Below are positions 29,811 through 59,325 of a stretch of DNA of 64,000 nucleotides, piece after piece (positions within the stretch are counted from its first letter, which is position 1; the number at the start of each line of letters is the position of its first letter). The notes beneath the pieces were generated by a model. The model was not told the DNA's origin and ran no database searches. It was given only the letters and a program-made list of their open reading frames with translations. The position numbers and the translations under genes were made by a program. Source of the stretch: Inediibacterium massiliense (GTDB lineage Bacteria > Bacillota > Clostridia > Peptostreptococcales > Thermotaleaceae); the NCBI RefSeq assembly GCF_001282725.1, contig NZ_LN876587.1, forward strand, positions 20,108 to 84,107. The letters run 5' to 3'.

Positions 29811-29887
29811 GGATTTACTTTATGGCTTGAAAAAACATAAAGATACTTTATAATATTTGATAAAGAAGAATATAAGGAGTTTTGAGT

Positions 29888-41528: not shown

Positions 41529-41626
41529 TTTCTTACGCAAGGGCAGAAACAAAAAGAAGAACAATCAGTAGAACAGGAGCAAAGTTCTGCTCCAACAATG
41601 ACAATGTAAATTAGGAGGATTTGATT

Positions 41627-41878
41627 ATGAAGAAAATTATTTGTTTTGCAAATGAAAAGATGGATAAGGCACAAGCATTTTTTATGGTTCAGAGAATGAA
41701 AATGAGATCTGCTGTTTTAAATAACAGAGGTGAAAATTATGTGGACAGTGCAGTCAAAATCTTGATTGCAGTTGTACTTGGCGGACTGCTTCTTGCAGGA
41801 CTTTATGCTTTATTCGGAGATGTAGTAATGCCGACACTCAAAAGCAAAATCCAAGAAATGTTTAACTACCAAGGTTAA
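41627..41878 (+). CDS. Small pilin-like membrane protein (DUF6133-like)
   Basis: An 83-residue protein with NNRGENYVDSAVK at residues about 34-46, followed by one hydrophobic segment (LIAVVLGGLLLAGLYALF). The G-E junction before the segment resembles a prepilin cleavage site. The same NN-x-G-x-x-Y motif starts the hydrophobic segments of the proteins at 53,465 and 53,869. It may be the major pilin of the Tad-like system encoded downstream. ATG at 41,627 follows AGGAGG. Confidence 0.65.
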   Translation: MKKIICFANEKMDKAQAFFMVQRMKMRSAVLNNRGENYVDSAVKILIAVVLGGLLLAGLYALFGDVVMPTLKSKIQEMFNYQG

Positions 41879-41890
41879 CGGAGGGATAAT

Positions 41891-44539
41891 ATGAATCAGA
41901 AATTTAAAAAGACTTCTTCTTTTCTGCTCATTGTCTGCCTTATCGTTTCAATGTTTGCAGGCAGTGCCTATGCTATGCATTTATACTTTGAGGATGCGAA
42001 AGGACATTGGGCAGAAGAAGCAATTCAAAAACTAACAGAGCAAGGTATTGTTACTGGTTTTCCCGATGGTCTTTGCCATCCCGATGAAACCATTACCCGT
42101 GGAGAATTTACTACACTTCTTGCAAGAACGTTAAAGATATCTGAAGATAAGGAATATCCATCCTCTTCTTTTTCGGATATTGAAAGTCATTGGTCGGAGG
42201 ATAATATTTTATTTCTTGTAAGCAAAGACATTATTGAAGAATCTGATTACAAGGATCATTTATTTAAACCCGATGAACCAATCACAAGAATGGAAATTGT
42301 AAAGATGTTGGTTCGTGCATTAGGTGCGAACTGCCACAGCAAAGATTGTACTTGTAATCTTGATTTTACAGATATTCAGCTTTTGAACAAAGAGGATAAG
42401 CTGTATCTTTGCATTGGTGAAAAGTATTACATTATCCATGGCTACCCTGATAAAACAGTAAAGCCAAATGATACAGCTACCCGTGCGGAAGCCTTTCAAA
42501 TGCTTGTGAAAGAAAAAAAAGCAAAAGAACAGATAAAAAAAGAGGAACAAAATCCACCTGTTGTAAAACCGGATGAAAAACCTTCGCATGGAAATAGCAG
42601 TGGCGGAAGTTCCTTCTATGTTCCTGAACCACAGTTTAGCTTTACTCTTCCAAAAACAATCTATGTAGGAGAATCTATTACCGTTGTACCGCAAAGCAAA
42701 TATGTAAATTCTGTCGTTTGGTCTGTCAGTAAGAATGATCTTCCCATTGAATTTTCAAAGACTTTTGAGGGCGAGCTGAAAGCTGACGGAGGTACGATCA
42801 AAGCAAAAGATGCAGGTACTTATGTTATTACCGCAACAGCTAAGAACAGCCGTGGCAGAGAAATTACATATAAACAGACTGTATCCGTTTACCCTGTTAT
42901 GACAGCTGATTTTACTTTGCCGAATACAGCACATACCGATACAAGTATTGCAGTAGATTTAAAAGCTGAAAACCTTGGCAGTAACTCTGTTGTATGGACT
43001 CTTACGAAAGATAATAAATCAGCAAAAATAGCAGATTCCCTTGTAGGCAAACTTGGAAATACTGGAGGAACGGTGCAGTTTAAAGAAAAAGGCATTTACA
43101 CTCTAACCGCCACTATTACTGATGAAATCGGAAAAGTTGTGACGGTTTCTCATGAAATCACGGTCTATCCTGTGGCTGATGTAAAACTCAACTTACCGAA
43201 TGTTACACATACCGATAAAACAATTATTCTTACGACAGAGAATAAAAACAGTAAGGATTTGTCGGCATCATGGAGCCTAACAAAAGACGGAAAAGAAGTT
43301 GAGATTGCAAAATATATCAAAGGAAACCTTACTCTGAGTGACAGCGACATTGGTTTCACAGAAAAAGGTGTCTATCAGCTGACGATTACATTAACCGATA
43401 AAGCAGGCAGAAAATTCACCGATACCGCTAAAGTTACGATTTATCCCGTAGGCTCTGTAGGATTTTATCTTCCGACTATTCTTCATACTGATGATACGGT
43501 TAAGGTAGAAACCACTTTAGGAGAAGTCGGCGACAAAACTGCCATATGGACACTCGAAAAAGATGGACAGAAAGTTGCTCTTGCTGATTGTATAAGTGGC
43601 AGCTTGACAAATGATGGTGGCAATATTCGTTTTAAAGAAAAAGGAAACTATGTTTTAAAAGCCTCATTTACTGATGATGTCGGCAGGAGTTATTCCTATG
43701 AGCAAAATGTCAAAGTATACCCTGTGCCGACTGTGACTTATTCCGTGCCAAAGTATGCTCATACCGATACGAAGATTGAGATTACGGTAAGTGGTACAGA
43801 TTTAGATGATCTTACCTTGGAGTGGCTTGTAGATAATGCCTTTGGTTATCAAGATTGGAACACTTTTGTCAATGGAAAACTTAATAATAGTGGTGGTTCA
43901 ATCTATTTTAAGAGAGCAGGCATTTATGAACTTGTGTGTCGAGTTACCGATGAAACAGGCAGAGTATTTTTATTTGAACCAAAGAAAACAACAGAGGTTC
44001 TACCTGTTCTTGCAATTGGCTTCGAACTGCCAAAGGTGGCCTATACCGATACGGAAATAGATCTTCGCACAAGCGGTCATAATAACACACTTCCCGTGGA
44101 GTGGACAGTAACGAAAGACGGTGAAAAAAAATCTCTTGAAACGATTCTTGACGGCAACCTCAATGCACTTGGTGGTAAGGTAAGATTTAAAGAATATGGA
44201 GAATTTGTATTAACCGCAGATATGACAGATTTACTTGGCAGAAAGTATTCTCACAGTGAAAGCATTACGATTATGCCTGTATTGGATTTTGGCTTTACCA
44301 TGCCAAATGAAATTCATTATGGCAAGGAGTTCAATGTAAAAGTCAGCAAATCCGAACATATCGAAAACGCAAAGGTTTCTTGGATGCTCAGCAAAAACGG
44401 TGCTCCTGTAAGTTATACCGGAGTGCTGACAGATAAGGGGGCTCAATCTCGATTTTCGATACAGGTGAATTTGCTCTTACTTCTGTTGCAACCGACCGTT
44501 TGGGAAGAGAAAGCAGATGCACACAGAAAATTACTGTAA
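41891..44539 (+). CDS. SLH-domain surface protein with Ig-like repeats, N-terminal part before a frameshift
   Basis: The first 845 or so residues are a secreted cell-surface protein. A signal peptide (residues about 1-29, ending GSAYA) is followed by three SLH domains that bind the cell wall (about 30-215). A charged linker with a Gly/Ser stretch follows, then seven Ig-like repeats of about 90 residues (each with LP...HTDT, KEKG.Y.LTA and a YPV end). At the G5 run 44,437-44,441 the frame shifts: the true continuation is in the -1 frame, and this frame ends in an unrelated 35-residue tail at 44,539. One more G restores the protein. It may be an adhesin or pilus-associated surface protein of the ICE. 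Confidence 0.85.
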   Translation: MNQKFKKTSSFLLIVCLIVSMFAGSAYAMHLYFEDAKGHWAEEAIQKLTEQGIVTGFPDGLCHPDETITRGEFTTLLARTLKISEDKEYPSSSFSDIESHWSEDNILFLVSKDIIEESDYKDHLFKPDEPITRMEIVKMLVRALGANCHSKDCTCNLDFTDIQLLNKEDKLYLCIGEKYYIIHGYPDKTVKPNDTATRAEAFQMLVKEKKAKEQIKKEEQNPPVVKPDEKPSHGNSSGGSSFYVPEPQFSFTLPKTIYVGESITVVPQSKYVNSVVWSVSKNDLPIEFSKTFEGELKADGGTIKAKDAGTYVITATAKNSRGREITYKQTVSVYPVMTADFTLPNTAHTDTSIAVDLKAENLGSNSVVWTLTKDNKSAKIADSLVGKLGNTGGTVQFKEKGIYTLTATITDEIGKVVTVSHEITVYPVADVKLNLPNVTHTDKTIILTTENKNSKDLSASWSLTKDGKEVEIAKYIKGNLTLSDSDIGFTEKGVYQLTITLTDKAGRKFTDTAKVTIYPVGSVGFYLPTILHTDDTVKVETTLGEVGDKTAIWTLEKDGQKVALADCISGSLTNDGGNIRFKEKGNYVLKASFTDDVGRSYSYEQNVKVYPVPTVTYSVPKYAHTDTKIEITVSGTDLDDLTLEWLVDNAFGYQDWNTFVNGKLNNSGGSIYFKRAGIYELVCRVTDETGRVFLFEPKKTTEVLPVLAIGFELPKVAYTDTEIDLRTSGHNNTLPVEWTVTKDGEKKSLETILDGNLNALGGKVRFKEYGEFVLTADMTDLLGRKYSHSESITIMPVLDFGFTMPNEIHYGKEFNVKVSKSEHIENAKVSWMLSKNGAPVSYTGVLTDKGAQSRFSIQVNLLLLLLQPTVWEEKADAHRKLL

Positions 44540-45564
44540 CCAATACGGCTCCCCAAATTTCTGAGTTTACAATAACCCCAACAAGAACTACAAAAGATGG
44601 TAAGTTTCTAGTAAATATCTCTGCCACAGCAAGTGATCCAGATGAAGATACTATCGTGCTTGAATGGCAAGGTGAAAATGTAGACGGCTACTATGCTGTG
44701 GGAACATATACGGTTAAAGTTCGTGCAAAAGATACGGCAGGGACTTATTCCGAATGGTCAGAGAAGTCATTTACAGTTGCAAACTCAGCACCTACTATCA
44801 CAAATTTTACAGCAACTCCAACAAGAACTGCAAAAGATGGTAAGTTTCTTGTAAACATCTCTGCTACAGCAAGCGATGCAGATGGAGATGAAACCATACT
44901 TGAATGGCAGGGCAAAAATGCAGACGGTTACTATACGGTAGGAACATATACGGTTAAAGTTCGTGCAAAAGATACGACAGGGACTTATTCCGAATGGGAA
45001 GAAAAGTCATTTACAGTTGCAAACTCAGCACCTACAAGACCTGTCATTACCAGAACACCAAATGGTAACAGTGTAGCACCGGGTACACTCGTTACTATTA
45101 CAGCACAAAGCATTGACCCCGATGGTGATAACATTACCTATGTCTGGGAGAACAGACCGAGCCAAACAGGCACTTATTCTCTAGGAAAAAATGTAGTGCG
45201 AGTAAAAGCGGTTGACAGTACTGGTGCTGAATCCCCATGGTCAGCAATTGTATTCTTTGTTGCCGATTCAAACGGCTCAGGTGGAATGACACTAACAGGC
45301 CCCGACTCTACTATCTTGGAAAACGGAATTGAGGGTGCAACTATCACAAAATATACCTTTACTGTTCCACCTGTCAGTGGGCATAGCGGCAATGACTTTG
45401 GTAGAGTAAAAGGATACAACATTCTAACAAAGCAGTGGGAACAGCTTGATTACGGAACTACAAGCAATGGAATCACCTTTGAGCGAAGCTTAACAAGTGG
45501 ACTTTATTCCAAACTGGAGTTTTACTACTATACCAATCATAATTGCATGTATGTGCGTCCGTAA
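44500..45564 (+). pseudogene. C-terminal part of the SLH-Ig surface protein (exon 1 continues to 45,552)
   Basis: This frame continues the previous gene after the G5 frameshift; coding similarity starts already at about 44,442. It holds two nearly identical 80-residue PKD/fibronectin-like units, a related third unit and a C-terminal domain. The group II intron begins at 45,553, so the last 4 codons here are intron sequence; spliced RNA would continue in exon 2 at 48,048. It has no ribosome binding site of its own that I trust, so it is not an independent gene. Confidence 0.75.
44542..45021 (+). repeat. Two tandem 240-bp units in the surface-protein gene
   Basis: Units 44,542-44,781 and 44,782-45,021 have a period of exactly 240 bases (80 codons) with only scattered mostly silent differences. 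This points to a recent in-frame tandem duplication. Confidence 0.9.
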
Positions 45565-46136
45565 GGACTTTTTAGTATCGCCCATGAGTGGGCATTAGAT
45601 TAAAGAGAAATCTAATTGGTCAGCCGACTTACCAGTAGCCGAAAGGTCAATGGGAACAAAGCACGTCGGAAAAGCATATTTGTTTTGAAGTCAGGGATAA
45701 GCAAGATATGCAAGACCACAGCGTAATATGGCTAAGACTATACTGTTTTAATCCCAGTTTCTTCGCTTTAACATGGTGGGCAAACACACACTGACTTATG
45801 TGTTTGAGGATAAATCTATGAAAATATTTGTACATTGTTTTCATACTCTTTGATTTATTCCGACGTACAATCAGTACGTTAAAGAAACGAAAAGGAAGCC
45901 TAAGTTACACCAACTGTACTATTAAGTTTAAACGGAGATTGCCTAAGTTAGAATGCCGTCTTTATGGCTATATGTAATGCCTTTATGGTGATAAATCTCA
46001 AGGATAAAACTAAGAGAGATGACATTGAATATCTAATATGGCAACGGAGCTTTCATAGTAGTCCGAGCAAGGGAAAGCCTTGTACATGGCGAAGGAAAGC
46101 AGATTGTTTGATTGATAAAGAATGGAGGTATGCGAA

Positions 46137-47936
46137 ATGCAAAATGCTAATACGATTTTATCAATACTAAATCAGAAATCCAATACTGATGAACACTATG
46201 TATTCCAAAGAATATATAGACTCTTGTACAACAAAGAGTTTTATGTTAATGCCTATGCCAAAATCTACTCCAAAGAGGGGAATATGACAGAGGGTGTTGA
46301 CGGCAAAACCATTGATGGTTTCAAGTATGAAATCATTGATAATCTGATTGAAAAACTAAAAACAGAACAGTATTATCCAAAACCAGTAAGAAGAACCTAT
46401 ATCCCAAAAAAGAACGGTAAGAAAAGACCTCTTGGAATACCATCTTTTGAAGATAAATTGTTGCAAGAAGTTATTAGACAAATCCTTGAAGCCATTTATG
46501 AGCCAATTTTCAATGATAAGTCTCATGGTTTTAGACCGAATAGAAGTTGTCATACTGCACTGTGTCAAATCAAAGATACAATGAGAGGAACAAGTTGGGT
46601 TATCGAGGGTGATATAACAGGGTGCTTTGATAATATCGACCACACAATCCTATTAAATATTTTATCTAAGAAGATTGGTGATGGGAGATTTATCGAGTTA
46701 ATTAGAAGATTTTTGAAAGCAGGATATATTGAGTTTAAGCAAATGCATAACTCCATTTCTGGTTGCCCACAAGGTGGCATTATCAGTCCTATTTTATCTA
46801 ACATCTATCTAAACGAGTTTGACAAATACATGGACGAGATTATCTCCAAAAACACCAAGGGCAAAAATAGAAAGCACAATCCCGAATACGAGAGATTGCG
46901 TGGAAAAAGATATACTGCAATGAGGAATAACAACCTTGAAGAAGTCAAACGATTGACAAGCATATTGCAAAGTATCCCCACCACCGACCCAATGGATAGC
47001 AATTTTACAAGAGTGCGTTATGTGCGTTATGCTGACGATTTTGTAATTGCCGTCATTGGTAGTAAGGAAATGGCGAAAGGCATAAGGGAGGATGTTGCAA
47101 AGTTCCTAAAAGACAACTTAAACCTTGAACTAAATGAGGACAAGACCCTCATTACAAATCTTGCAACGGAAAAAGCCAATTTCTTAGGCTATGAATTTAT
47201 GAAAGCACACAACAACACAAAAATGGTTAAGGATAAAAAGGGCAACAAAAAGCGTTCTATTAATGGTCAAATTCAACTATTAGTACCCCATAAGGTTATC
47301 AATCAGAAAATCAAGGACTTTACGAGCAATGGAGAATCAAGTGTTTTCAAACCAAGATTAAAATTGCCTGTTCTTGATATTATCAGTGAATACAATGCTG
47401 AAATCAGAGGGTTATACAATTATTATTGCTTAGCTCACAATGTTAGCAAAAGGCTGTACAAGTTTAAATATTATCACTATTTTAGTATGCTCCACACAAT
47501 CGCAAGAAAAGAAAATATATCTGTTAAAAAGGTTATCAAAAAGTATGGTATTGATGTGCCAATAAAAGATGGCACAGGAACTCGCCGAGTAGTGGGTATG
47601 AAATATCGGACCAAGAAAGGCGAAAAAGTAATGACATACTTTAATGACAGTATTGTTAGAAAAGATTTTGCTGAAAAAATAGTGCTTGATAGCTTTGGTT
47701 ATGGTGTGCCTTTTCGTGCACAACTGATAACGAGATTAAATGCAAATCAATGCGAATTGTGTGGCAGTGACGAAAATGTGGAAGTTCATCATGTAAGAAA
47801 ACTAAAGGATATTAAAGACAAGTATAAAAAACGTGGCACACGCATTCCAAACTGGAGTTTGGTTATGTCACAGATGAATAGAAAAACCTTAATCGTCTGT
47901 AAAAACTGCCACTGGAATATCCATAGAGGCAACTGA
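46137..47936 (+). CDS. ltrA: Group II intron reverse transcriptase/maturase with HNH endonuclease
   Basis: A 599-residue intron-encoded protein. The reverse transcriptase domain has RPNRSCHTAL, the PQGGIISPIL motif near residue 208 and the active-site RYADDFVI near 300. A maturase (X) domain follows, then a C-terminal HNH endonuclease with CELCGS, EVHHVRK and CKNCHWNIHRGN. All key residues are present, so the intron may still move. The ATG at 46,137 lies 8 bases after GGAGG. Confidence 0.95.
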   Translation: MQNANTILSILNQKSNTDEHYVFQRIYRLLYNKEFYVNAYAKIYSKEGNMTEGVDGKTIDGFKYEIIDNLIEKLKTEQYYPKPVRRTYIPKKNGKKRPLGIPSFEDKLLQEVIRQILEAIYEPIFNDKSHGFRPNRSCHTALCQIKDTMRGTSWVIEGDITGCFDNIDHTILLNILSKKIGDGRFIELIRRFLKAGYIEFKQMHNSISGCPQGGIISPILSNIYLNEFDKYMDEIISKNTKGKNRKHNPEYERLRGKRYTAMRNNNLEEVKRLTSILQSIPTTDPMDSNFTRVRYVRYADDFVIAVIGSKEMAKGIREDVAKFLKDNLNLELNEDKTLITNLATEKANFLGYEFMKAHNNTKMVKDKKGNKKRSINGQIQLLVPHKVINQKIKDFTSNGESSVFKPRLKLPVLDIISEYNAEIRGLYNYYCLAHNVSKRLYKFKYYHYFSMLHTIARKENISVKKVIKKYGIDVPIKDGTGTRRVVGMKYRTKKGEKVMTYFNDSIVRKDFAEKIVLDSFGYGVPFRAQLITRLNANQCELCGSDENVEVHHVRKLKDIKDKYKKRGTRIPNWSLVMSQMNRKTLIVCKNCHWNIHRGN

Positions 47937-47952
47937 TTTAGAAACAATTGGA

Positions 47953-47988
47953 GAGCCGTATACATTGAAAGGTGTACGTACGGTTCGG
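47953..47988 (+). ncRNA. Group II intron domain V
   Basis: A 36-base hairpin with GAGCCGTA and TACGGTTC arms, a two-base bulge and a GAAA tetraloop, the catalytic core of the ribozyme. Confidence 0.9.
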
Positions 47989-48047
47989 AGGGGGGCAGAC
48001 AAAAACCTACCATAGAAATATGGCAAGGCGTTGGTTGCCTACCCTAC

Positions 48048-48092
48048 AACAAGTCAAACATTACTTACAGCGTAGAATATTTCTTTGAATAA
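48048..48092 (+). other. Exon 2 of the SLH-Ig surface protein
   Basis: After removal of the intron, the codon TAT at 45,550-45,552 is followed in frame by 14 codons (NKSNITYSVEYFFE) and TAA at 48,090-48,092. The prepilin peptidase ribosome binding site begins right after this stop. The unspliced message instead ends three codons into the intron. Confidence 0.8.
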
Positions 48093-48103
48093 TGGAGGCT
48101 TTT

Positions 48104-48550
48104 GTGTCATTTCAGTACATTATACAAGCTATATTATTTAGCATTCTGCTTATAATCATTTCCGTTATTGATGTCAGAAAGAGAGAAATCCCACCAATTT
48201 ATTGTGTGGCGGTTGCACTTTGTTCGGTGCTTGATTTTAAGGTGGCAAATCTGTTGGGATTAGGCATTGCTCTTATTTTATGGATATGTGCAGCGTTCAT
48301 ATGTCCCAATATGCTTGGCGGCGGTGACATTAAACTCACCGCCGCTGTAAGTCTTGTTCTTGGATTTACAGCCACGGCTTACGGAATCATTATTGGCTTT
48401 ACACTGGAACTCATTTGTTTTTCAGTGATAAAGCATCAAAAGAAGCTATCAGAGCAAGAGGCAAAGAATTACTTCATGCCCCTTGCTCCTTTTTTATCCA
48501 TCGGTTTTTTAACCACATATTTTATAAACTTGGGAGGACTTAGTATATGA
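48104..48550 (+). CDS. cpaA: Prepilin peptidase, CpaA/TadV type
   Basis: A 148-residue membrane aspartic protease that would process pilin-like precursors. The two catalytic aspartates are in DVRKREIP near residue 18 and in GGGDIKLTAA near 70. Four to five hydrophobic segments are visible. GTG at 48,104 is 5 bases after GGAGG; an ATG at 48,092 has no site. The end overlaps the cpaB start by ATGA. Its likely substrates are the pilin-like proteins at 41,627, 53,465 and 53,869. Confidence 0.85.
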   Translation: MSFQYIIQAILFSILLIIISVIDVRKREIPPIYCVAVALCSVLDFKVANLLGLGIALILWICAAFICPNMLGGGDIKLTAAVSLVLGFTATAYGIIIGFTLELICFSVIKHQKKLSEQEAKNYFMPLAPFLSIGFLTTYFINLGGLSI

Positions 48551-49323
48551 AAATTTTCAAAAACAGAACAACACTTGGCATTCTCTGCATTGTAATATCT
48601 TTGCTTATCTGCTTTGGAATTACACCGCTTTTCAATAAAACGATCAGTCAGAAGACAGAAATTGTGAGAGTTGCAAAGGAAATCAAGTTGGGCGATAAAA
48701 TAGCAAAGGATATGGTGCAGACTGTGGAAGTAGGTGGATATAACCTGCCCGAAAATGTTATTAAAAACAAAGATACAGTTATTGGCGCGTTTGCAGCTGC
48801 TGATTTATCTGTTGGGGATTATATCTTAAACACAAAGATATCTAAAACACCCGCACAAGATAATGCATATCTATATCGATTAAATGGTGAGAAACAGGCA
48901 ATTTCACTTACACTGAAAACCTTTGCAAGCGGTCTTTCGGGCAAACTTCAAAGCGGAGATATTGTTTCGGTGATTGCACCCGATTATAGAAAACAAGGGA
49001 TGACCGTTATTCCGCCCGAACTGAAATATGTGGAAGTAATTTCGGTTACTGCACCAAGCGGTTATGATGCTAATACAGGAGAAGTCATTGAAAATGAAGA
49101 TGAACGAGAACTACCTACCACTGTTACACTTCTTGCCACAGCAGAACAAAGTAATATCTTAGCAGAACTTGAGTCAGACGGAAAAAGCCATGTTTCTCTT
49201 GTTTATCGCGGGGATTCAAAACAAGCAGAAAAGTTTATTTCTATTCAAGAAGAAGTGCTTAATAAACTTTATCATTCAGAGATCAGCACAGAGACTACGC
49301 AAGAAAACGAGGTGGTGCAGTAA
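48547..49323 (+). CDS. cpaB: Flp pilus assembly protein CpaB-like (SAF domain)
   Basis: A 258-residue protein with an N-terminal membrane segment (residues about 11-32), then a SAF domain (VRVAKEIKLGDKIAKDMV) and a CpaB core (GKLQSGDIVSVIAP near 137). In Tad systems CpaB is periplasmic or extracytoplasmic. It overlaps both neighbours and is part of the operon. Confidence 0.85.
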   Translation: MKIFKNRTTLGILCIVISLLICFGITPLFNKTISQKTEIVRVAKEIKLGDKIAKDMVQTVEVGGYNLPENVIKNKDTVIGAFAAADLSVGDYILNTKISKTPAQDNAYLYRLNGEKQAISLTLKTFASGLSGKLQSGDIVSVIAPDYRKQGMTVIPPELKYVEVISVTAPSGYDANTGEVIENEDERELPTTVTLLATAEQSNILAELESDGKSHVSLVYRGDSKQAEKFISIQEEVLNKLYHSEISTETTQENEVVQ

Positions 49324-50132
49324 TGAATTTTATGAAAGGCTCCATTTTTTCACGAGGTCAAACGCAGAAAGTACCAAAAGAACAGGCACTCCATGGCGGT
49401 GTTCTTGCTGTTTGGGGAAGTCCTTCAAGTGGTAAAACAACTGTTGCTGTAAAGATTGCAAAATACCTTGCAGATAAAAAGAAAAATGTAGTACTGGTGC
49501 TTTGTGATACGACTGCGCCCATGATCCCCTGTATCTGCTCGCCATCAGATTTAGAATGCGAAAAATCACTGGGAAGCATCTTAGCCGCACAACATGTTAC
49601 CGAATCACTGGTGAAATATCATATGATTACTCATAAAAAGATGGATTACCTTACCATTCTTGGCATGCTAAAAGGAGAAAACGAATATTCCTATGCACCT
49701 TATAACGAAACACAGGCAAAAGAACTGATTGCAAGTCTTAGAAAAATCGCTCCCTTTGTCATAATTGACTGTGGAAGTTATATTGCAAGTGATATTCTCT
49801 CTGCTGTAGCCTTGATAGATTGTGATTCTATGTTAAGGCTTGCAAATTGTGATTTAAAATCCATCAGTTATTTATCCAGTCAGCTATCTATTTTGCAAAC
49901 CACAGGACTTGACTTTGAGAAACAATATAAATGTGCATCAAATATGAAATCAAATCACGGTATTGAACATATGGCGGGTGCTATGGGAAGTCTTACTTTT
50001 CAAATACCTCATTCCAATGAGGTAGAACAGCAATACTTGGAGGGTAATCTCTTTGCAGATTTGACTTTAAAAGACAGCCGAGAATTTCGCAAAAAGATTG
50101 AAAAAATCGTAAAGGAGGTGTTCGGATGTTGA
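49323..50132 (+). CDS. tadZ: TadZ/CpaE-like ParA-MinD ATPase
   Basis: A 269-residue P-loop protein with Walker A GSPSSGKTT near residue 35 and a second conserved strand VIIDCGSYI near 140. It lies between cpaB and cpaF, which is the TadZ position; TadZ localises Tad pili at the cell pole. No N-terminal receiver-like domain is seen, so it is shorter than many TadZ proteins. Confidence 0.78.
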   Translation: MNFMKGSIFSRGQTQKVPKEQALHGGVLAVWGSPSSGKTTVAVKIAKYLADKKKNVVLVLCDTTAPMIPCICSPSDLECEKSLGSILAAQHVTESLVKYHMITHKKMDYLTILGMLKGENEYSYAPYNETQAKELIASLRKIAPFVIIDCGSYIASDILSAVALIDCDSMLRLANCDLKSISYLSSQLSILQTTGLDFEKQYKCASNMKSNHGIEHMAGAMGSLTFQIPHSNEVEQQYLEGNLFADLTLKDSREFRKKIEKIVKEVFGC

Positions 50133-51643
50133 AAAAGATTATAGAATTCTTTTTCAAAAGGAAAGAGAAAAGTCCAAAGAATGATGCTTATGAACCAGAC
50201 AATAAAACTACCTCGATATGTAATAGAGTCAATGAACTGCTTGCAGTACCAAATGAAATAACAAGTCCTGTGAAACTGGGGGTTAAGAAGAATACACACT
50301 CTTTATTTTTTGCTCAAGAGTGCGAGTATAGGGAGTTTTCACAAGTACTAAAACAGGTGCAGGAGTATATATCCGAAAACTATGCGAACCTCATTACCGA
50401 CAGTAATTTAGAAGATGCCAAAGAACAGATGAAACGATATATTAGCAAGTATGTTATGGATGAGAAAATTGCTGTTAATGGGATGAATGAGAATGAGCTA
50501 ATTGATACTCTATACACTGAAATGGCGGAGTATGGTTTTTTAACAAAATATATCTTCGGAAAAAACATTGAGGAAATAGATATCAACTCTTGGCGGGATA
50601 TTGAGGTGCAATATTCTGATGGCAGAACGGTAAAGCTTGATGAGCATTTTGATTCACCGGAACATGCTGTCAATGTGGTTCGGAGAATGCTCCATGTATC
50701 GGGAATGGTTTTGGACAATGCAAGTCCTGCAGTTCTTGGGCACCTTTCAAAAAATATCCGTATTGCCACATTAAAGACACCTCTTGTGGATGAAGATGTT
50801 GGCATTGCGGCATCCATTCGTATTGTAAATCCACAGAGTATGAAGAAAGAGGATTTTGTACAAGGTGGAACGGCTACCGATGAAATGCTGAATATGCTGT
50901 CACAGCTTGTTCGATATGGTATTTCCGTTTGTATTGCAGGTGCAACTTCAAGCGGTAAAACCACAGTGCTTGGATGGCTGTTGACAACAATCCCAAACGG
51001 AAAACGAATTTATACCATCGAAAACGGTTCAAGAGAGCTTGATCTTGCACGATATGAAAATGGTAAAGCCGTGAATTCGGTCATTCACACGATTACAAGA
51101 GATAGTGATAATGATAAGCAAAAAATTGACCAAATCACACTCCTTGATATGGCACTTCGTTTTAATCCTGATATTGCAGTAATCGGAGAAATGCGAGGCC
51201 CCGAAGCCAATGCAGGACAAGAGGCGGCAAGGACAGGTATTGCTGTTATAACAACTCTTCATGCAAATTCAGCTGTTGCAGTGTATCCAAGAATGGTATC
51301 CCTTTGCAAACGTGCGGTGGATATGGATGATAAGACATTATACGGATATGTAACAGAGGCATACCCAATCGTGGTATTCTGTAAACAGCTTGAAAACAAG
51401 CAAAGACGCATGATGGAGATTATGGAATGTGAAATTATGCCCGATGGGACAAGAAATTTTCGCAGTTTATATCAGTATATTGTTACAGAAAATGAAATTG
51501 ATAAAAATGGTAATTTCATCATTGAGGGGCATCACAAACGAATACATGGTATTTCCGACAGCTTAGCAAAACGACTGCTGGAAAACGGTATGCCTCTTGA
51601 AATGATTAACACCTTACAGAAAGCTGAGGTGAGTAACAATTGA
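50126..51643 (+). CDS. cpaF: Secretion ATPase CpaF/TadA
   Basis: A 505-residue type II/IV secretion ATPase. Walker A is GATSSGKTTVLGW near residue 270, the Asp box is around IYTIENGSRELDL, Walker B IAVIGEMRGPEA near 350 and the His box TTLHANSAVAVYPR near 374. It overlaps tadZ by 7 bases and tadB by 4. It would power the Tad-like pilus; the VirB11 alternative is less likely because tadB and tadC follow directly. Confidence 0.93.
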   Translation: MLKKIIEFFFKRKEKSPKNDAYEPDNKTTSICNRVNELLAVPNEITSPVKLGVKKNTHSLFFAQECEYREFSQVLKQVQEYISENYANLITDSNLEDAKEQMKRYISKYVMDEKIAVNGMNENELIDTLYTEMAEYGFLTKYIFGKNIEEIDINSWRDIEVQYSDGRTVKLDEHFDSPEHAVNVVRRMLHVSGMVLDNASPAVLGHLSKNIRIATLKTPLVDEDVGIAASIRIVNPQSMKKEDFVQGGTATDEMLNMLSQLVRYGISVCIAGATSSGKTTVLGWLLTTIPNGKRIYTIENGSRELDLARYENGKAVNSVIHTITRDSDNDKQKIDQITLLDMALRFNPDIAVIGEMRGPEANAGQEAARTGIAVITTLHANSAVAVYPRMVSLCKRAVDMDDKTLYGYVTEAYPIVVFCKQLENKQRRMMEIMECEIMPDGTRNFRSLYQYIVTENEIDKNGNFIIEGHHKRIHGISDSLAKRLLENGMPLEMINTLQKAEVSNN

Positions 51644-52569
51644 ATATAATTTTATTAACTGCCTATATCGGAATGATAACAGGCTTTTTTATTTTATTTT
51701 CCCTATCTCTATCGGAGTTTACAGATGGAGTTTTCAAATCCTTTTTAAATGGTCCAAAAAGTATAAAGGAAGAGATCAATAAAACAACGAATAGAAAAAA
51801 GGTTGCTTTCTTTAAACGAGAGATAAAAGAGGTACAGGAAATTTTAAAAATAACTGGTCGAGCAAGCCGTTTCCCAATGATTTGTATAATTTCACTTGCA
51901 TTGTTTGCAGTTGGAACATCCATAGCAATTATGATGGGCAACTTCTTCCTTGTACCGGTTCTTGCAGTAGGAATGATGCTTTTGCCTTTTTGGTATGTTC
52001 GACTCACTCAAACTCATTTTAAAAAGGATATTGCCGCAGAACTTGAAACAGCGCTGTCTATCATTACCACCTCATATCTAAGAAATGAGGACATTTTGAC
52101 AGCGGTGGAGGAAAATATAAACTACTTAAATCCGCCTGTGCTTTCCGTATTCAAAGGTTTTGTTTATCGAATTAAGATGATCAATCCAGACATTAATACA
52201 GGGTTGCAAAGCATAAGAAAGCAGATAGATAACGCTGTCTTTCGAGAATGGTGTGATGCGTTGATTGCGTGTCAGCAGGATAGAAGTCTTAAAAGCACAT
52301 TGACACCAATTGTATCAAAACTTTCTGATATGCGGGTAGTAAACGGTGAACTTGAAAACTTGGTATTTGAGCCGAGAAAAGAGTTTATTACGATGCAGAT
52401 GTTGGTGCTTTGCAATATTCCTCTGCTGTATTTTTTAAACAAAGACTGGTATCACACTCTAATGCACACCATTCCAGGGCAGATTGTACTTGCGGTTTGT
52501 TTTATCATCATGTTTGTATCTATGGCATTTGTGATTAAGCTGACTCAGCCAGTTGAGTATAGGAGGTGA
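51640..52569 (+). CDS. tadB: TadB-like inner membrane protein (T2SSF family)
   Basis: A 309-residue platform protein with hydrophobic segments at residues about 3-24, 85-125 and two at the C-terminus, and a T2SSF-type cytoplasmic region (ELETALSIITTSYLRNEDI). TTG start overlapping the cpaF stop. It pairs with the next gene as TadB/TadC. Confidence 0.82.
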   Translation: MNIILLTAYIGMITGFFILFSLSLSEFTDGVFKSFLNGPKSIKEEINKTTNRKKVAFFKREIKEVQEILKITGRASRFPMICIISLALFAVGTSIAIMMGNFFLVPVLAVGMMLLPFWYVRLTQTHFKKDIAAELETALSIITTSYLRNEDILTAVEENINYLNPPVLSVFKGFVYRIKMINPDINTGLQSIRKQIDNAVFREWCDALIACQQDRSLKSTLTPIVSKLSDMRVVNGELENLVFEPRKEFITMQMLVLCNIPLLYFLNKDWYHTLMHTIPGQIVLAVCFIIMFVSMAFVIKLTQPVEYRR

Positions 52570-52577
52570 AAAGGCAT

Positions 52578-53450
52578 ATGCAAATTATAATGATTCTTTT
52601 TGCTGTTTTCTTTGCAATGGGATTATTCTTTATCCTTGCAGAATTTCTGAAACTCCCAAGCTTAGCCGCAGAAAAAGCAATGCTTTCTGCGGCTAAGGAA
52701 AGCAGTAAAAAAACTAAAAATATAGAAGTTCTGCTTAACGGATTTGCAGTAAGGATTGCAAAATATTTGCCTATAGATGAGTACAAGAAAATACGTATGA
52801 GAAATACCTTGAATGCTGCAGGAATGAAAGAAACCCCCGAAGAATTTATGGCAAATGCACTTGTGAAATCAGGTGTCATTCTCTTTGGAATCATTCCTGC
52901 GCTTATTCTTTTTCCTCTGCTTGCTCCTATAGTTTTAATTCTTGCCGTGATTGTTTATTTTAAAGAAATCCGCAAGGCTGATGAAAAGCTAAATGCAAAG
53001 AGAGAAAAAATTGAAATAGAACTTCCAAGGTTTGTGGCAACTGTTAAACAGGAACTAAAGGCAAGCCGTGACGTGCTTTCAATCCTTGAAAACTTTAAGA
53101 AAAATGCAGGTACAGACTTTGCTAAAGAGCTGGATATTGTAACAGCGGACATGCGGTCATCATCTTATGAGGCGGCACTTACAAGGTTTGAGGCGAGAAT
53201 CAATTCAACAATGCTGTCTGATATTACTCGTGGACTAATTGGTGTGCTGCGTGGTGATGATGGTGCGATGTATTTTCAAATGCTGAGTCATGACATGAAA
53301 CAGTTGGAGTTGCAAAGGCTGAAAGCAGAGGCGATGAAGATACCTTCGAAAATCCGTATATTTAGCTTTTTGATGCTCATGTGTTTTCTAATGACTTATA
53401 TCGTCATTATCATTTCTGAAATCATTCATTCACTCAGTGCAATGTTATAA
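52578..53450 (+). CDS. tadC: TadC-like inner membrane protein (T2SSF family)
   Basis: A 290-residue platform protein with an N-terminal hydrophobic segment, a central pair near residues 95-125 and one at the C-terminus. The T2SSF core is visible as ELPRFVATVKQELKASRDVLSILENF. I start at the ATG at 52,578; a GTG at 52,566 lies within the AGGAGG site. Confidence 0.82.
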   Translation: MQIIMILFAVFFAMGLFFILAEFLKLPSLAAEKAMLSAAKESSKKTKNIEVLLNGFAVRIAKYLPIDEYKKIRMRNTLNAAGMKETPEEFMANALVKSGVILFGIIPALILFPLLAPIVLILAVIVYFKEIRKADEKLNAKREKIEIELPRFVATVKQELKASRDVLSILENFKKNAGTDFAKELDIVTADMRSSSYEAALTRFEARINSTMLSDITRGLIGVLRGDDGAMYFQMLSHDMKQLELQRLKAEAMKIPSKIRIFSFLMLMCFLMTYIVIIISEIIHSLSAML

Positions 53451-53464
53451 GGGAGGTGCTTTTT

Positions 53465-53869
53465 ATGCATAAAATGCTGAAATCTCTCCGAAACAATCGT
53501 GGTGAGGGATACATTGATGTAGTAGTGTTTGTCCTTTGTGCAATGCTCATAATTGCTGTCGCGGTTAAGGTATTCCCTGCCTATATTGCCAAACAGCAGG
53601 TTGATACTTTTGCGACAGAACTTGTACGTGAAGCAGAAATTGCAGGTCGAGTAGGGACAGAAACGGCAAGACGAGAGCAAGTGCTTATTGAAAAAACAGG
53701 ATTTCATCCAGAGGTTAAATGGTCAACAACAGGCAAAATACAGCTAAACGAAGAAGTTTCTGTTATAGTCACTTATGATATGGATATCGGGTTGTTTGGT
53801 GGTTTTGGTTCATTTCCTGTTACGCTACGAGGTGAAGCAATGGGGAAAAGTGAGGTGTATTGGAAGTGA
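53465..53869 (+). CDS. TadE-like pseudopilin (DUF4320-like)
   Basis: A 134-residue protein: NNRGEGYIDVVVFVLCAMLI at residues about 9-28 combines a prepilin-like G-E site with a hydrophobic helix, followed by a strand-rich C-terminal half. This matches DUF4320 / TadE-like proteins of clostridial ICEs. A CpaA substrate by inference. Confidence 0.72.
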   Translation: MHKMLKSLRNNRGEGYIDVVVFVLCAMLIIAVAVKVFPAYIAKQQVDTFATELVREAEIAGRVGTETARREQVLIEKTGFHPEVKWSTTGKIQLNEEVSVIVTYDMDIGLFGGFGSFPVTLRGEAMGKSEVYWK

Positions 53870-54417
53870 TGAAAAAACGAATAAAACCATTACAAAACAA
53901 TCATGGCAACGGTTATCCTTTAGCTGTTGCTATTACTCTTTGTCTTGTAATGATTTTTACAGGCATCTCTGAATATTTTCGTCTTTTAATCGTTGCACAG
54001 GGAGTTCGTGATGCAATGCAAGATGCAGTCATTTCTACGGTTACAGAGAATTATGATGATGTGTATCACGGAGTTAGAGAAGGATATTCGGGCGGCTATC
54101 AGCCAAACCTTGATGACTTTAAAGAGTCCATTGATTATGGCGATATTTATGATAAAATGGATACAATACTTGGTTTAACAGTAGAAAATGACTATCACAA
54201 AAAAGTAACAGAGGATAATAACAATACCCAGTTTAAAATTTGGAATCTTGATGTGGATATTAAAAATGCACCTTTTGCAAGCGGTGATCTGGATAGCCAA
54301 AGATTTAAAATAAATAGCTCTGTGAACTTAGAAGTCCCTGTATCCTTTGGAGGAAAACTGTTGCCGCCGATGCATATCAAGGTAGAAAACAGTGCGGGAT
54401 ATACACCTAAATTTTAA
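53869..54417 (+). CDS. Pseudopilin-like protein
   Basis: A 182-residue protein with NNHGNGYPLAVAITLCLVMI at residues about 9-28, the same motif and helix as the upstream gene, then a soluble domain with conserved GG residues near the end (VPVSFGGKLLPPM). Its start overlaps the previous stop (TGATG). It may be TadF- or TadG-like. Confidence 0.6.
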   Translation: MKKRIKPLQNNHGNGYPLAVAITLCLVMIFTGISEYFRLLIVAQGVRDAMQDAVISTVTENYDDVYHGVREGYSGGYQPNLDDFKESIDYGDIYDKMDTILGLTVENDYHKKVTEDNNNTQFKIWNLDVDIKNAPFASGDLDSQRFKINSSVNLEVPVSFGGKLLPPMHIKVENSAGYTPKF

Positions 54418-54514
54418 CTTTATGATAACTTTTAAATCTTTAGTAGACTTTTAAAAAATCTTGTGATACGGTTTGACTTAATAGAAGAATTTATATATAA
54501 GGAGGCCTCGGTTT

Positions 54515-55045
54515 ATGAAAAACATAAATGATAAAACCCAAAAGTGGCTCATCATAACAGGCGGTATAGTAATAAGCATTTCACTGATTGTTATGATAGG
54601 AGTAAGATTTCAGAAACCTCCTGTTAAGGATGTCGATATTTCCTCTCAAAGTAGTGAGGTTCAAGATGTAGTGACAAAAACACCCACTACTTCAGAAAAA
54701 GAAGATGAAATTAAGGTACCGCCTATTGAAGTTCCACAGCAGATGGAAACGGATAACGGAGCGGTAGATACAGGTACAGAACAGAAAATTCAAGGAGATG
54801 CTGAAAAGCCTACATATACAGAAGAACAGCTTACAAATCCAAATGAAAAACCAAATGGTGATAAGGTAACAGCAGATGATAAGCCTGTTGAACATGATAA
54901 AGTGGAAAAACCAACTGCACCAACGCAAAATACATCTGGTGGGTTACCTGGATTCGATAATGTACCCAATGGTGGTGAGAATGAAGTTGTTGATGGTGTA
55001 AGTGATGGTGATATCAATAAGCAAGTAGGAAATATGGGAGAATAA
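54515..55045 (+). CDS. Membrane-anchored protein with charged Pro/Glu-rich stalk (DUF6550-like)
   Basis: A 176-residue protein with one N-terminal hydrophobic segment (residues about 12-31) and a low-complexity region rich in Pro, Glu, Lys and Thr up to a Gly/Asn-rich end. It is a common companion of Tad-like genes in such ICEs. Probably an extracytoplasmic stalk; function unknown. Confidence 0.55.
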   Translation: MKNINDKTQKWLIITGGIVISISLIVMIGVRFQKPPVKDVDISSQSSEVQDVVTKTPTTSEKEDEIKVPPIEVPQQMETDNGAVDTGTEQKIQGDAEKPTYTEEQLTNPNEKPNGDKVTADDKPVEHDKVEKPTAPTQNTSGGLPGFDNVPNGGENEVVDGVSDGDINKQVGNMGE

Positions 55046-55062
55046 AATATAATCAAGGTTAG

Positions 55063-55088
55063 TGCACTGCAAAAGCAGTGCATTTTTT
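55063..55088 (+). terminator. Terminator before the secreted 562-residue protein
   Basis: TGCACTGC and GCAGTGCA form a perfect 8-bp stem with an AAAA loop, followed by TTTTTT. Confidence 0.9.
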
Positions 55089-55107
55089 CTTGGGGAAAGG
55101 AGCCTTA

Positions 55108-56796
55108 ATGAAAAAGATATTAACAACAATATGTATTTCTCTAATCATTGTCTGTTGTTATTCCATATCTGTTTTTGCTGTTGGGGATGGAAATATTGAT
55201 GGTGGAGGTGGAGGAATGGGCAGTGGTACAAGCAACAATGTATGGTCACCAGGCAATGATGGTGTTCGTGTGACCGTAGTTAGAACCAAGGATCATGCGA
55301 TAGTGACTACTCCCATAGATATAACTAATAAACCTCCAGATTCATCTATCTATAACTTCGGTAAGATAAGCAAGATTCAATATGGAAATGGTAAAGCTTT
55401 GTTCCCACAAAAAGGTGGATATAACTGTATTAAGCCACCCAAAGCAATACCCAGAATCGTAAGTACGAATGGCAGTAACAATATTGAAACTATAAAAAAA
55501 TATTTCTGCTCGGAGTATACAGTGCAGATGATAGCCAATCACACAGGCATGAACTACGATGTGCTAATTGGTGGAGAGTATAAATTACTGCTTGAACCAA
55601 TTGCTTATTACAAGTTTGAGGGTGTTATGATTGCAACCACTGCAACTGAGGCGGCCATGTATGATGAAAAGGTCAGTGGATTGCTGCGAAAGCGAATGGT
55701 TTCTTTATCTCACAAAAACCTACCTCTTGCAATGTTTTTGGAAGTATCTGACTTAGGCTATCCTGCGTGGAATGGCAGTACAACCAAGGCAGCAACCAAT
55801 GCGGATATTAAATCATTGCTTGGACTTGGGGTTGTGCGTTTTACAGAACAGCCGGAACCACCTGTTGTTTCAACGTATGATTATGAATACCGTGTAAGCA
55901 CAGAGGTCATTACCTCCGTTATGATCAGCGGTGGGCAGTCTGATCCCGACAATCCGACTCGTGTCAGCTTTCATATTAACGGTAAAAACTATAATGTAGG
56001 TAATATATATTATCCCGAAGGTGACAGTCAGCTTGCGTGGGTAAAATGGACTACTCCCAACATAGAACAGAATATGAACATAGATGTAACTGTAAAAGGT
56101 CCGGGAGGAACAGATAAAACCACCATTCATTGCAAAATTGTTGACCTTGATAAAAATCCGCCACCAAACCCTGTTGCTGATGATAGAGATGATGACTTTT
56201 CATTATCACCTATTCCTCAAAGAGCAGAAAAAACAAAGGCTGAATGGACTGTTTGGGACCCGTGGTGGCATGAATATTGGGTATGGCATAGCACAGGTGA
56301 AAATAGTGGGTATTGGTGCGACCATGGATGGTGGGAGTTTGAACTGAACAAGTATTATGCTGTCTTTTCGGCAGAGATGAAGTTACTTTGCGATGGTAAA
56401 AATCCAACTGCAAATGGTAAGACAATGAAATCTGGATATGGCGTTAATCAAGAAGTATCTGCTTCCGTAAGCAGTAATCAATTCTCGGCAGTGACCAACC
56501 CACAAAACGCAGTGAGCTACTTTCCAGAATTTAATTACAACACCTATTGGCGACTATTGGAACAAGTTCAGAATGGTAGTAATGCTCGTTTTGAATTTCA
56601 AAAAAATAAGTACTCTACCTATAAAAATCGAACTCACTTTACACCAATTTGGATGCCAAACGGAAAATATGAAGTGAACACGTGGATAATAGACAGCTGG
56701 ACCCCTGTAGGAATGATGTCTAAAAATCTTAGTGACAGTTTAATGATTCATGGTTCGCTGTGGGATGATTGGCACGCCGCACCATTAAAACCATAA
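55108..56796 (+). CDS. Large secreted protein of the ICE (DUF5704-like)
   Basis: A 562-residue exported protein with a signal peptide (residues about 1-23, ending SVFA) and a Gly-rich start (DGGGGGMGSG). A domain near residues 260-340 looks like a beta sandwich. A Trp-rich patch (WTVWDPWWHEYWVWH near 390) is striking and could bind carbohydrate or membrane; that is a guess. ATG at 55,108 follows AAAGGAG; the upstream in-frame ATG lies in the terminator. Confidence 0.6.
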   Translation: MKKILTTICISLIIVCCYSISVFAVGDGNIDGGGGGMGSGTSNNVWSPGNDGVRVTVVRTKDHAIVTTPIDITNKPPDSSIYNFGKISKIQYGNGKALFPQKGGYNCIKPPKAIPRIVSTNGSNNIETIKKYFCSEYTVQMIANHTGMNYDVLIGGEYKLLLEPIAYYKFEGVMIATTATEAAMYDEKVSGLLRKRMVSLSHKNLPLAMFLEVSDLGYPAWNGSTTKAATNADIKSLLGLGVVRFTEQPEPPVVSTYDYEYRVSTEVITSVMISGGQSDPDNPTRVSFHINGKNYNVGNIYYPEGDSQLAWVKWTTPNIEQNMNIDVTVKGPGGTDKTTIHCKIVDLDKNPPPNPVADDRDDDFSLSPIPQRAEKTKAEWTVWDPWWHEYWVWHSTGENSGYWCDHGWWEFELNKYYAVFSAEMKLLCDGKNPTANGKTMKSGYGVNQEVSASVSSNQFSAVTNPQNAVSYFPEFNYNTYWRLLEQVQNGSNARFEFQKNKYSTYKNRTHFTPIWMPNGKYEVNTWIIDSWTPVGMMSKNLSDSLMIHGSLWDDWHAAPLKP

Positions 56797-56819
56797 GAAA
56801 AAGGAAGGTAGATAAATAT

Positions 56820-57161
56820 ATGAATAAACACAAGAAAATTGCATTCATTCTCATAGTAGCACTGCTTATTTGTCTGTTATTTAGCACTACTGTTTTTGCA
56901 GCTGGAACAGGAGATGTAGCCGGAGCTATTGAAGGTACATGGAAAGATGCATCAAGTCAGATTAAAACGGTGGTTAACAAGGTTATTTTCCCAGCTATTG
57001 ATTTAATTCTTGCGGTGTTTTTCTTTGCCAAATTAGGTCTTGCCTATTTTGATTATAGGAAACATGGTCAATTTGAGTGGGCGGCACCGGCAATCCTTTT
57101 TGCATGTTTGGTGTTTACTTTAACGGCACCGCTTTATATTTGGACTATTTTGGGTATGTAG
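56820..57161 (+). CDS. VirB2/TrbC-like small membrane protein (DUF3852-like)
   Basis: A 113-residue protein: signal peptide ending VFAAG near residue 29, then two hydrophobic helices (about 55-75 and 90-110). Size and layout are those of conjugative pilin-like VirB2/TrbC proteins. It stands between the secreted protein and the VirB6-like gene. Confidence 0.65.
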   Translation: MNKHKKIAFILIVALLICLLFSTTVFAAGTGDVAGAIEGTWKDASSQIKTVVNKVIFPAIDLILAVFFFAKLGLAYFDYRKHGQFEWAAPAILFACLVFTLTAPLYIWTILGM

Positions 57162-59031: not shown

Positions 59032-59243
59032 ATGGGAAGCCTTTTTGATGGGATTGGCGGATTCCCCCTTGCTGCAGTTCACAATGGAATTGTGCCTTTA
59101 TGGGCCAGTGAAATCGAAAGTTTTCCCATCGAAGTAACAAAAATACGATTTCCCGAGATGCTCCATGTTGGTGACATTACAAAGCTTGATGGGAGCAAAC
59201 TTCCTGTTGTGGATATTATTTGTGGAGGTTCGCCTTGCCAAGA
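59032..59243 (+). pseudogene. 5' part of an interrupted C5-cytosine DNA methyltransferase
   Basis: Encodes GSLFDGIGGFPLAA (motif I, SAM binding), a region with WASEIE (motif II), VGDITKLDG (motif III) and then GGSPCQD, the catalytic PC motif (motif IV). Directly after the Gln codon the RIT-like element begins. The continuation is found at 63,130 in the same frame. The reading frame itself runs 16 codons into the inverted repeat to a stop at 59,290. Confidence 0.9.
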
Positions 59244-59325
59244 TTATGCCGAGGAAATAGTTATCCCGAAGTTTAAGCCACAGCCCTTGTAAATAAAGGG
59301 ATTGTGGTCAAAAAATTCGGGATAA
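59244..59325 (+). repeat. Left inverted repeat of the RIT-like element
   Basis: The first 48 bases are identical to the complement of the right repeat (63,018-63,099); the remaining 34 differ at about 7 positions. It contains TTATCCCGAA (59,261-59,270) and TTCGGGATAA (59,316-59,325), mirror copies of one motif. Confidence 0.92.

Follow-up and report, generated by a model that had tools for sequence, protein, structure and literature searches.

How do Gram-positive donors that lack PrgB-like adhesins find and hold their recipients, and could some of their mobile elements build a mating pilus of their own? The question is raised by a 64,000-nucleotide stretch of the Inediibacterium massiliense genome (NZ_LN876587.1, positions 20,108 to 84,107; hereafter the window, part of host contig C14), in which a Tad-type module and a type IV secretion system (T4SS) belong to one integrative and conjugative element (ICE) with VirB2-like, VirB6, VirB4, MobL relaxase, VirD4 and serine recombinase genes. 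The best-supported reading, which we hold with modest confidence, is that the module specifies a monoderm version of the Tad-like type IV filament, one that helps mating partners make contact.

The core of the module consists of six overlapping genes at 48,092-53,450, all on the forward strand, as are the other genes of the cluster. In order, they encode a TadV-like A24 prepilin peptidase (48092..48550; PF01478, 4.7e-10), CpaB/RcpC (48547..49323; PF16976, 3.2e-12, over cut-off; TIGR03177, 3.2e-15, under cut-off), a TadZ-like P-loop ATPase (49323..50132), the CpaF/TadA ATPase (50126..51643; PF00437, 2.6e-26, over cut-off), a TadB-like membrane protein (51640..52569), named from position, length and overlap only, and TadC (52566..53450). 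The TadZ-like protein matches general ParA/MinD-type models (PF01656, 1.4e-6) and takes its name from its place between CpaB and CpaF. TadC is followed by a DUF4320 protein (53456..53869; PF14208, 1.2e-36) and a 185-aa protein without a Pfam family (53860..54417). Neighbours in the module overlap by 1-10 bases, the sole exception being a 5-base gap 5′ of DUF4320. The series continues with a DUF6550 protein that, by eye, appears to be a single-pass membrane protein (54515..55045; PF20187, 3.4e-11), a 572-aa protein with no Pfam family and, by eye, an apparent Sec signal (55078..56796), the VirB2/TrbC-like DUF3852 protein (56769..57161; PF12963, 1.9e-47; TrbC, 1.4e-4, under its cut-off) and VirB6/TrbL (58086..58988; PF19511, 3.1e-148). 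A DUF6133 gene lies upstream (41621..41878; PF19629, 1.9e-34).

An earlier description made from the letters of this DNA (the sequence-only reading) had named these six core genes and their overlapping arrangement, and both are borne out. It had also called the Tad core complete and placed it on a conjugative element. The core and its linkage to a T4SS stand, but "complete" is too strong, because canonical Flp, TadD and TadG were not seen and TadB is unproven by sequence. No secretin RcpA was noticed among the listed open reading frames (ORFs), for which no dedicated search was made; a secretin is not expected in a monoderm.

The enzymatic and platform components carry recognizable signatures. 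Both catalytic aspartates of the A24 peptidase, Asp27 and Asp79 (the latter in GGGD), are invariant in all 24 sequences aligned (of 33 rows), and the prepilin peptidase predicted earlier thus retains its catalytic residues. The alignments A1, A2 and A5 comprise 19, 19 and 24 sequences hand-chosen from 34, 32 and 33 rows plus the window. Neither TadB nor TadC of this copy matches a type II F model; among relatives of TadC, 14 of 19 weakly match PF00482 (T2SSF), at best with 9.1e-4. The predicted structure of TadC (mean pLDDT 70.6) aligns with PilC, OutF and EpsF across roughly 105 residues (Z 10.8-11.8). The top seven rows of this structure search (Z 10.7-11.8) are all type II F/PilC proteins or SpoIIIAB (10.7), with TcpE at rank 8 (Z 8.2) and the first unrelated row at Z 5.5; Foldseek gives 5nbg_A a probability of 0.97 and a TM-score of 0.71 by target, yet an E-value of 1.0. 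The relatives' PF00482 matches and the model together give TadC a predicted PilC/EpsF fold.

Three small proteins are candidate prepilins: the DUF6133 protein as the putative major, Flp-like subunit, the TadE-like DUF4320 protein and the 185-aa protein as a putative minor subunit. With a slash at the presumed cut, their motifs read NNRG/ENYVD in DUF6133 (Gly37 from the TTG start, residue 10-12 from likelier internal ATGs), NNRG/EGYID in DUF4320 (Gly16) and NNHG/NGYPL in the 185-aa protein (Gly16). Homologues were taken from 34 CpaF-bearing loci in named genomes and metagenome-assembled genomes (MAGs), the rows being non-independent and some loci near-identical. In DUF4320, Gly-1, Glu+1, Gly+2, Tyr+3 and Asp+5 are each present in 32/32 rows; in the 185-aa protein, Gly, [FY]+3 and Pro+4 are each present in 31/31, with Leu (30) or Phe (1) at +5. 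The DUF6133 alignment has 40 rows, three of them 3′ fragments, and among the 37 with an N-terminal half, 35 have Gly (the exceptions, L026 and L036, have Ala) and 36 have Asp+5. Since mean column identity is just 51% in the DUF4320 alignment and 45% in that of the 185-aa protein, the motif is conserved above its surroundings.

The conserved core is G/x-x-[YF], joined in two candidates by Asp at +5. Judged from the alignments, the glycine and the +5 acid of DUF6133 and DUF4320 match the cleavage glycine and the acid at residue 5 of type IV prepilins; published work is cited here from excerpts, and in that of Imam et al. 2011 E/D at +5, after the cut in the hydrophobic N-terminus, is described as usual in type IV pilins (PMC3244431). 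Under a broad definition of type IV prepilins (Gly, hydrophobic helix, acid at +5), DUF6133 and DUF4320 have all three features and the 185-aa protein has the glycine and helix only. The combination G-x4-[DE] plus a hydrophobic helix, a rule formulated after the motif had been seen, occurs in 2 of 441 ORFs of at least 50 aa in the window and L006-L008, namely DUF6133 and DUF4320. In the predicted DUF4320 model (mean pLDDT 77.4), a 47-residue helix (17-63) begins right after Gly16 and is followed by a further helix and three strands.

The sequence-only reading had proposed NN(R/H)G(E/N)xY as a plausible cleavage signal common to the three proteins, and had named its absence from homologues as the outcome that would speak against it. 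The motif is indeed common to the three, and the glycine is retained across homologues, which supports all three as candidate prepilins. The asparagines are not conserved: N-4 is found in 24/40, 14/32 and 17/31 rows and N-3 in 19/40, 16/32 and 14/31, roughly half (DUF6133, DUF4320 and the 185-aa protein, respectively), and NN-x-G was discarded as a motif.

The physical linkage of the Tad core to VirB2/VirB6-like genes and a T4SS, also pointed out earlier, recurs widely. Outside the window (L006, L007) lie VirB4, an M23 peptidase, the MobL relaxase, VirD4 and the serine recombinase taken as the ICE integrase (L007:1166-2827); model searches match the relaxase at 5.7e-27, VirD4 at 6.9e-43 and VirB4 at up to 3.4e-10 (VirB4-type P-loop models). 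Within the stretch examined, VirB2-like or VirB6-like genes stand beside the module in 27 of 34 CpaF loci. Four of the remaining seven stop at a contig edge (L014, L021, L030, L031), L042 stops at DUF4320, an intron lies at the 572-aa gene of L023, and L017 runs into unrecognised genes. Across 398 genomes of the phylum, DUF4320 is present in 39 (36 over cut-off), and close VirB4 proteins (E ≤ 1e-200) number 16 copies, the window's own included. For 12 of them CpaF is encoded no more than 30 kb away on that contig; in G211 a contig end within the 572-aa gene divides the locus (L105, L106). The class of G206 added 14 VirB4 copies, of which 12 regions were taken (three ending at a contig edge) and two at contig starts were left out, and module genes lie beside the T4SS in 9/9 further assessable loci. 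Taken together, 22 of the 25 close VirB4 loci that could be assessed carry the module in the same cluster, one retains a remnant and two are without it. The module is unlikely to be stray cargo.

Codon comparisons also show purifying selection on the core genes. Against loci L009-L011, where dS is small (it is saturated against other loci), dN/dS is 0.07-0.16 for CpaB, TadZ, CpaF, TadB, DUF4320 and the 185-aa protein and 0.08-0.21 for TadC, with looser values for DUF6133 (0.24-0.37) and the A24 peptidase (0.20-0.44). The block at 48,048-56,800 is 92.5-92.9% identical in nucleotides to elements of Anaerovorax sp. IOR16, an Oscillospiraceae MAG and Anaerotignum sp. MB30-C6, the source of L011 and L015. 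These carriers, judging by their names, presumably belong to different families, and such identity therefore indicates that the ICE moved recently with its module kept. CpaF distances follow those of the VirB6-like (r 0.83, n 22) and VirB2-like (r 0.65, n 31) proteins, with 0 of 2000 permutations as high; this co-divergence shows shared descent, not function.

The module is also found with a second type of transfer system. Of eight plasmid matches, six regions were examined (H1 and H3-H7; H2 is unannotated and H8 duplicates H7 in length and scores). Terrisporobacter and Clostridioides plasmids H1, H3 and H5 carry a related module (CpaF 43-52% identical) beside CD1115-family VirD4 and genes of the pLS20_p028 type; H1 also encodes a MobP2 relaxase. 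On H4, PrgI, an ATP-binding protein and an NlpC/P60 protein lie upstream of the module; H6 has the module with DUF3852 14 kb away, and on H7 an FtsK-type gene accompanies two DUF4320 modules. The plasmid T4SSs are only distantly related to that of the ICE, their VirB4-like proteins scoring 61-89 bits against the ICE VirB4 profile. In 5/6 plasmid loci the module comes with a relative of the 572-aa protein; the protein therefore seems tied to the pilus and not to any single T4SS.

One Tad-less relative, L073 (genome G069), carries a different surface structure. Encoded 7-11 kb upstream of its VirB2-like gene are a pair of LPXTG-type proteins, in which SpaA domains are combined with pilin domains (the first) or thioester domains (the second), and a pair of sortase-like proteins, of which Pfam confirms one; the ICE's Dam-like and 554/397-aa-like genes separate this cassette from the VirB2-like gene. 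Although a single example, L073 appears to show the element carrying a different surface pilus. In Bacillus subtilis, efficient conjugation depends on a thioester adhesin of pLS20 (PMC8092201). The occurrence of the module with two types of transfer system, together with this one sortase-pilus replacement, favours a role in mating contact over chance cargo.

These observations bear most directly on the alternative that survives best, namely that the Tad pilus is cargo for host adhesion, colonisation or biofilm and has no part in transfer. Tad loci elsewhere do serve adhesion and colonisation, and the authors of the report on a putative conjugative plasmid of C. acnes, in the part available, deem its link to conjugation unclear (PMC5696575); the two close relatives without a module point the same way. 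Against this stand the 22 of 25 loci, where gene order continues from the module into the VirB2-like and VirB6 genes, and the relatives beside a second T4SS type on plasmids. Cargo genes are, moreover, usually more labile. We consider the adhesion-cargo explanation unlikely.

Another possibility is that CpaF, TadB and TadC form part of the T4SS, serving as a VirB11 stand-in with a short pseudopilus for the DNA or the channel and no external pilus. CpaF does match the VirB11 model TIGR02788 (4.5e-32, under cut-off). Gram-positive T4SSs are stated to lack VirB11 in the excerpted 2025 review, which raises the possibility that PAPI-1 is a chimera uniting a type IV pilus with VirB4/VirD4 and describes the pilus as essential in all mating conditions (PMC12857230). 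CpaF is nevertheless not nearer to VirB11: its best NCBIfam match is the TadA-type TIGR03819 (5.6e-38), all such matches being under curated cut-offs, and its closest solved structures are CpaF (8.2e-19), ahead of VirB11-like proteins (5.3e-9). The retention of a pilin set and a peptidase, for which VirB11 has no need, and the existence of Tad-less relatives further argue against this proposal, which we regard as improbable.

Less probable still is a role in secretion, with a Tad- or type-II-like pseudopilus exporting the 572-aa protein and the SLH-Ig surface protein encoded upstream of the peptidase. Relatives of the 572-aa protein do follow the module across T4SS types, but both putative substrates start, by eye, with apparent Sec signals, and a monoderm has no outer membrane to cross. 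An ICE-borne DNA-uptake (competence) filament deserves the least weight: transformation of Micrococcus luteus requires its tad locus, according to work cited in the excerpted PMC5696575, but here the module is linked to conjugation genes and no com genes were noticed among the listed ICE ORFs, a list that omits short ORFs and was not searched with models.

In the favoured mating-contact reading, the A24 peptidase would cut after the conserved glycine of DUF6133 (the major subunit), DUF4320 (TadE-like) and the 185-aa protein (the minor subunit). CpaF would power assembly, and probably retraction too, on a TadB/TadC platform, while CpaB, DUF6550 and the 572-aa protein would supply envelope and tip parts, the last being a candidate tip protein or adhesin. 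The filament would bring donor and recipient together or hold them, and the adjacent VirB4/VirB6/VirD4 channel would then pass the DNA. TadZ may also serve the T4SS, because the Tad-less relative L074 retains a TadZ-like gene beside its VirB2-like gene. A bolder extension, to which we lend a little less than even credence, is that a large family of clostridial ICEs and plasmids carries its own conjugative pilus, retractable, exchangeable for a sortase/thioester structure and used for pulling mating partners together.

Several observations weigh against the mating-filament reading. CpaF and CpaB score under the curated cut-offs of the NCBIfam equivalogs. No T2SSF match was found for TadB in the 19 relatives scanned, leaving it unproven by sequence, and the fold match of TadC covers one cytoplasmic domain (residues ~137-264), where a Z below about 13 may, as the structure tool warns, reflect a common helical-bundle arrangement. 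The Flp pilin rule is Glu/Asp at +5 and Tyr at +6, with Flp-like pilins lacking Tyr+6 also known (PMC3244431). DUF6133 departs from the rule, with D at +5, S/T at +6 and Y/F at +3, and at E ≤ 1 no TadE model appears among the listed matches of the three candidates; neither the canonical Flp motif nor the TadE family is represented. The 185-aa candidate has G-x-x-[FY]-P-L, with no acid at +5. Structure searches with the DUF4320 model (Foldseek and VIA) gave no clear pilin match. A whole-protein pilin fold is not supported for this model: Foldseek returned nothing at E ≤ 0.001, and its VIA alignment with full-length PAK pilin 1oqw_A (Z 5.9, residues 14-133) ranked under unrelated rows and was not used. 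Profile searches of solved structures with TadC and DUF4320 returned nothing under E 0.2, the pairing of DUF4320 with a Geopilin domain chain (E 0.79) being at chance level. In distant modules, including those on plasmids, a basic or polar stretch, a glycine and a hydrophobic helix are still visible in most rows; the +5 acid is often lost (DUF4320, Asp 9/21 and Glu 2/21; DUF6133, Asp 6/13), with the caveat that these cleavage sites were picked automatically by script and several picks are clearly wrong.

The linkage itself also has weak points. Two of the 16 close VirB4 loci, L073 and L074 (genomes G069 and G326), are without a module, and that of G112 (L107) is a decayed remnant; this T4SS can therefore persist without the Tad module. 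Terminator-like stems lie between the pilins and the T4SS, at 55061, 57587 and 58028 on the gene strand, downstream of the pilins, and a single pilin-T4SS transcript is therefore not supported. Terminator-like sites are slightly above the shuffled number (16 vs 10.7, sd 3.3), and promoter-like sites occur at the shuffled rate (49 vs 53.1). Linkage and co-divergence also fit co-inheritance without a common function.

Comparison with known systems places the module among Tad/Flp loci, with which it shares CpaF, TadC, an A24/TadV peptidase with two aspartates, RcpC, a TadZ-like ATPase and the +5 acid in two pilins, and from which it differs in that no canonical Flp motif or TadE family and no TadD or TadG were seen. 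Among the systems compared in one survey, Tad is the type IV filament system most often borne on plasmids (PMC6668835, excerpt). Type IV pili beside conjugation genes on mobile elements are known from TP114 and R64, whose pilins are needed for mating in broth, the TP114 pilus stabilising mating pairs in broth and in the gut; these are Gram-negative systems with a PilV shufflon, unlike the Tad type in a monoderm found here (PMC9045228). PAPI-1, itself integrative, likewise combines a type IV pilus with VirB4/VirD4, but is Gram-negative, and here VirB2-like and VirB6 genes are present too (PMC12857230). The C. acnes Flp-pilus plasmid is the nearest Gram-positive parallel, a mobile element with tad and VirB4/TcpC-like genes whose TadE-like protein was detected in the surface fraction; it differs in being actinobacterial and linear, and DUF6133 and DUF4320 go unmentioned in the excerpt (PMC5696575). 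The thioester adhesin of pLS20 is unrelated in sequence to the Tad proteins, but its proposed role of holding mating partners is similar (PMC8092201), and L073 has a sortase cassette with a thioester domain in place of Tad.

The individual parts are known. Their regular association with Gram-positive transfer systems runs contrary to the general statement of the 2025 review, as excerpted, that Gram-positive systems encode no conjugative pili (PMC12857230). If the bolder extension is true, that statement fails for this ICE family, which is found mostly in clostridia. The family would be an exception at the gene level, with a VirB11-superfamily ATPase alongside, and its gene set suggests a self-made mating pilus on some Gram-positive mobile elements. 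Among the matches listed from open-licence literature, none dealt with Tad loci of clostridial ICEs. Imam et al. 2011 describe a distant clostridial tad-like group (C. kluyveri, C. bolteae and others) with no apparent prepilin motif in the text available (PMC3244431). If these loci are of the same family, DUF6133, DUF4320 and the 185-aa protein may supply their candidate pilins.

Between DUF6133 and the peptidase lies a gene for an SLH-Ig surface protein, which the sequence-only reading had cast as a partner of the pilus. Its 5′ exon (41891..45552; SLH, 3.7e-27; Ig/PKD) has a frame break near 44,500 and is represented by two overlapping ORFs (41891-44539 and 44500-45564), whereas the homologue is a single 1235-aa ORF in L009-L011. 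A group II intron (45553..48047, beginning GTGCG; reverse transcriptase ORF 46122-47936; RF00029 at 47951-48047) is inserted near the 3′ end, and the sequences flanking it match, by eye, the unbroken C-terminus in L009-L011. The 3′ end of the gene follows (48048..48092), the last base of its stop codon being the first base of the peptidase start. The two-frame ORFs and the intron rule out an intact SLH-Ig adhesin in this copy, where the surface protein is doubtful, the frame break being either real or a sequencing error. The gene is unseen in the stretch examined, or located elsewhere, at many of the 34 CpaF loci. The idea that the window's intron splits a second DUF6133 copy was likewise rejected, as the intron sits in the SLH-Ig gene. 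Five loci (L012, L013, L018, L025, L039) have two DUF6133 copies each, which flank the SLH-Ig gene in L012 and L039; recombination between paired copies could remove or swap the surface protein.

Group II introns recur in or beside module genes in 6 of 8 sources scanned with Rfam (the window, L010, L012, L014, L022, L023, L028 and L031), mostly chosen as their genes looked split. They occur at the 572-aa gene in L010 (16296-18972), L023 (16916-19599) and L028 (16299-18978), at DUF6133 in L014 (up to 7610) and at the SLH-Ig 3′ end in L012 (6694-7372).

In the host genome as a whole, PF00437 has five matches, three of them over cut-off: the ICE CpaF and two adjoining genes at C14:980-982 kb, presumed to be a type IVa pilus locus. 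Besides the ICE's own, one A24 peptidase gene is over cut-off (C14:984 kb), and a host peptidase could therefore also process the ICE pilins. Left of the ICE lies a gene (29,882-31,270) that we take, from its own sequence, to encode an RNA methyltransferase of the RlmD/RumA kind; for att repeats, two flanks were tried and shared no word of at least 12 bases.

Further observations concern neighbouring genes. A second, distant Tad module (CpaF 38-39% identical) is found about 17 kb upstream of the first in G231 (L075/L076) and G206 (L088), and carries a 1,043-1,079-aa weak relative of the 572-aa protein. In L074, the retained TadZ-like ATPase (5871-6623, minus strand) is accompanied by a YodL-like gene. 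A SAM-methyltransferase-like gene (by eye; L006:2068-2982) lies between VirB4 and its upstream neighbour, which adjoin in L073. In the window, three consecutive tyrosine-recombinase-like genes (59032-59292; 59343-62939, minus strand; 63187-64000; names by eye) split what appears, by eye, to be a DNA cytosine methylase gene of the ICE.

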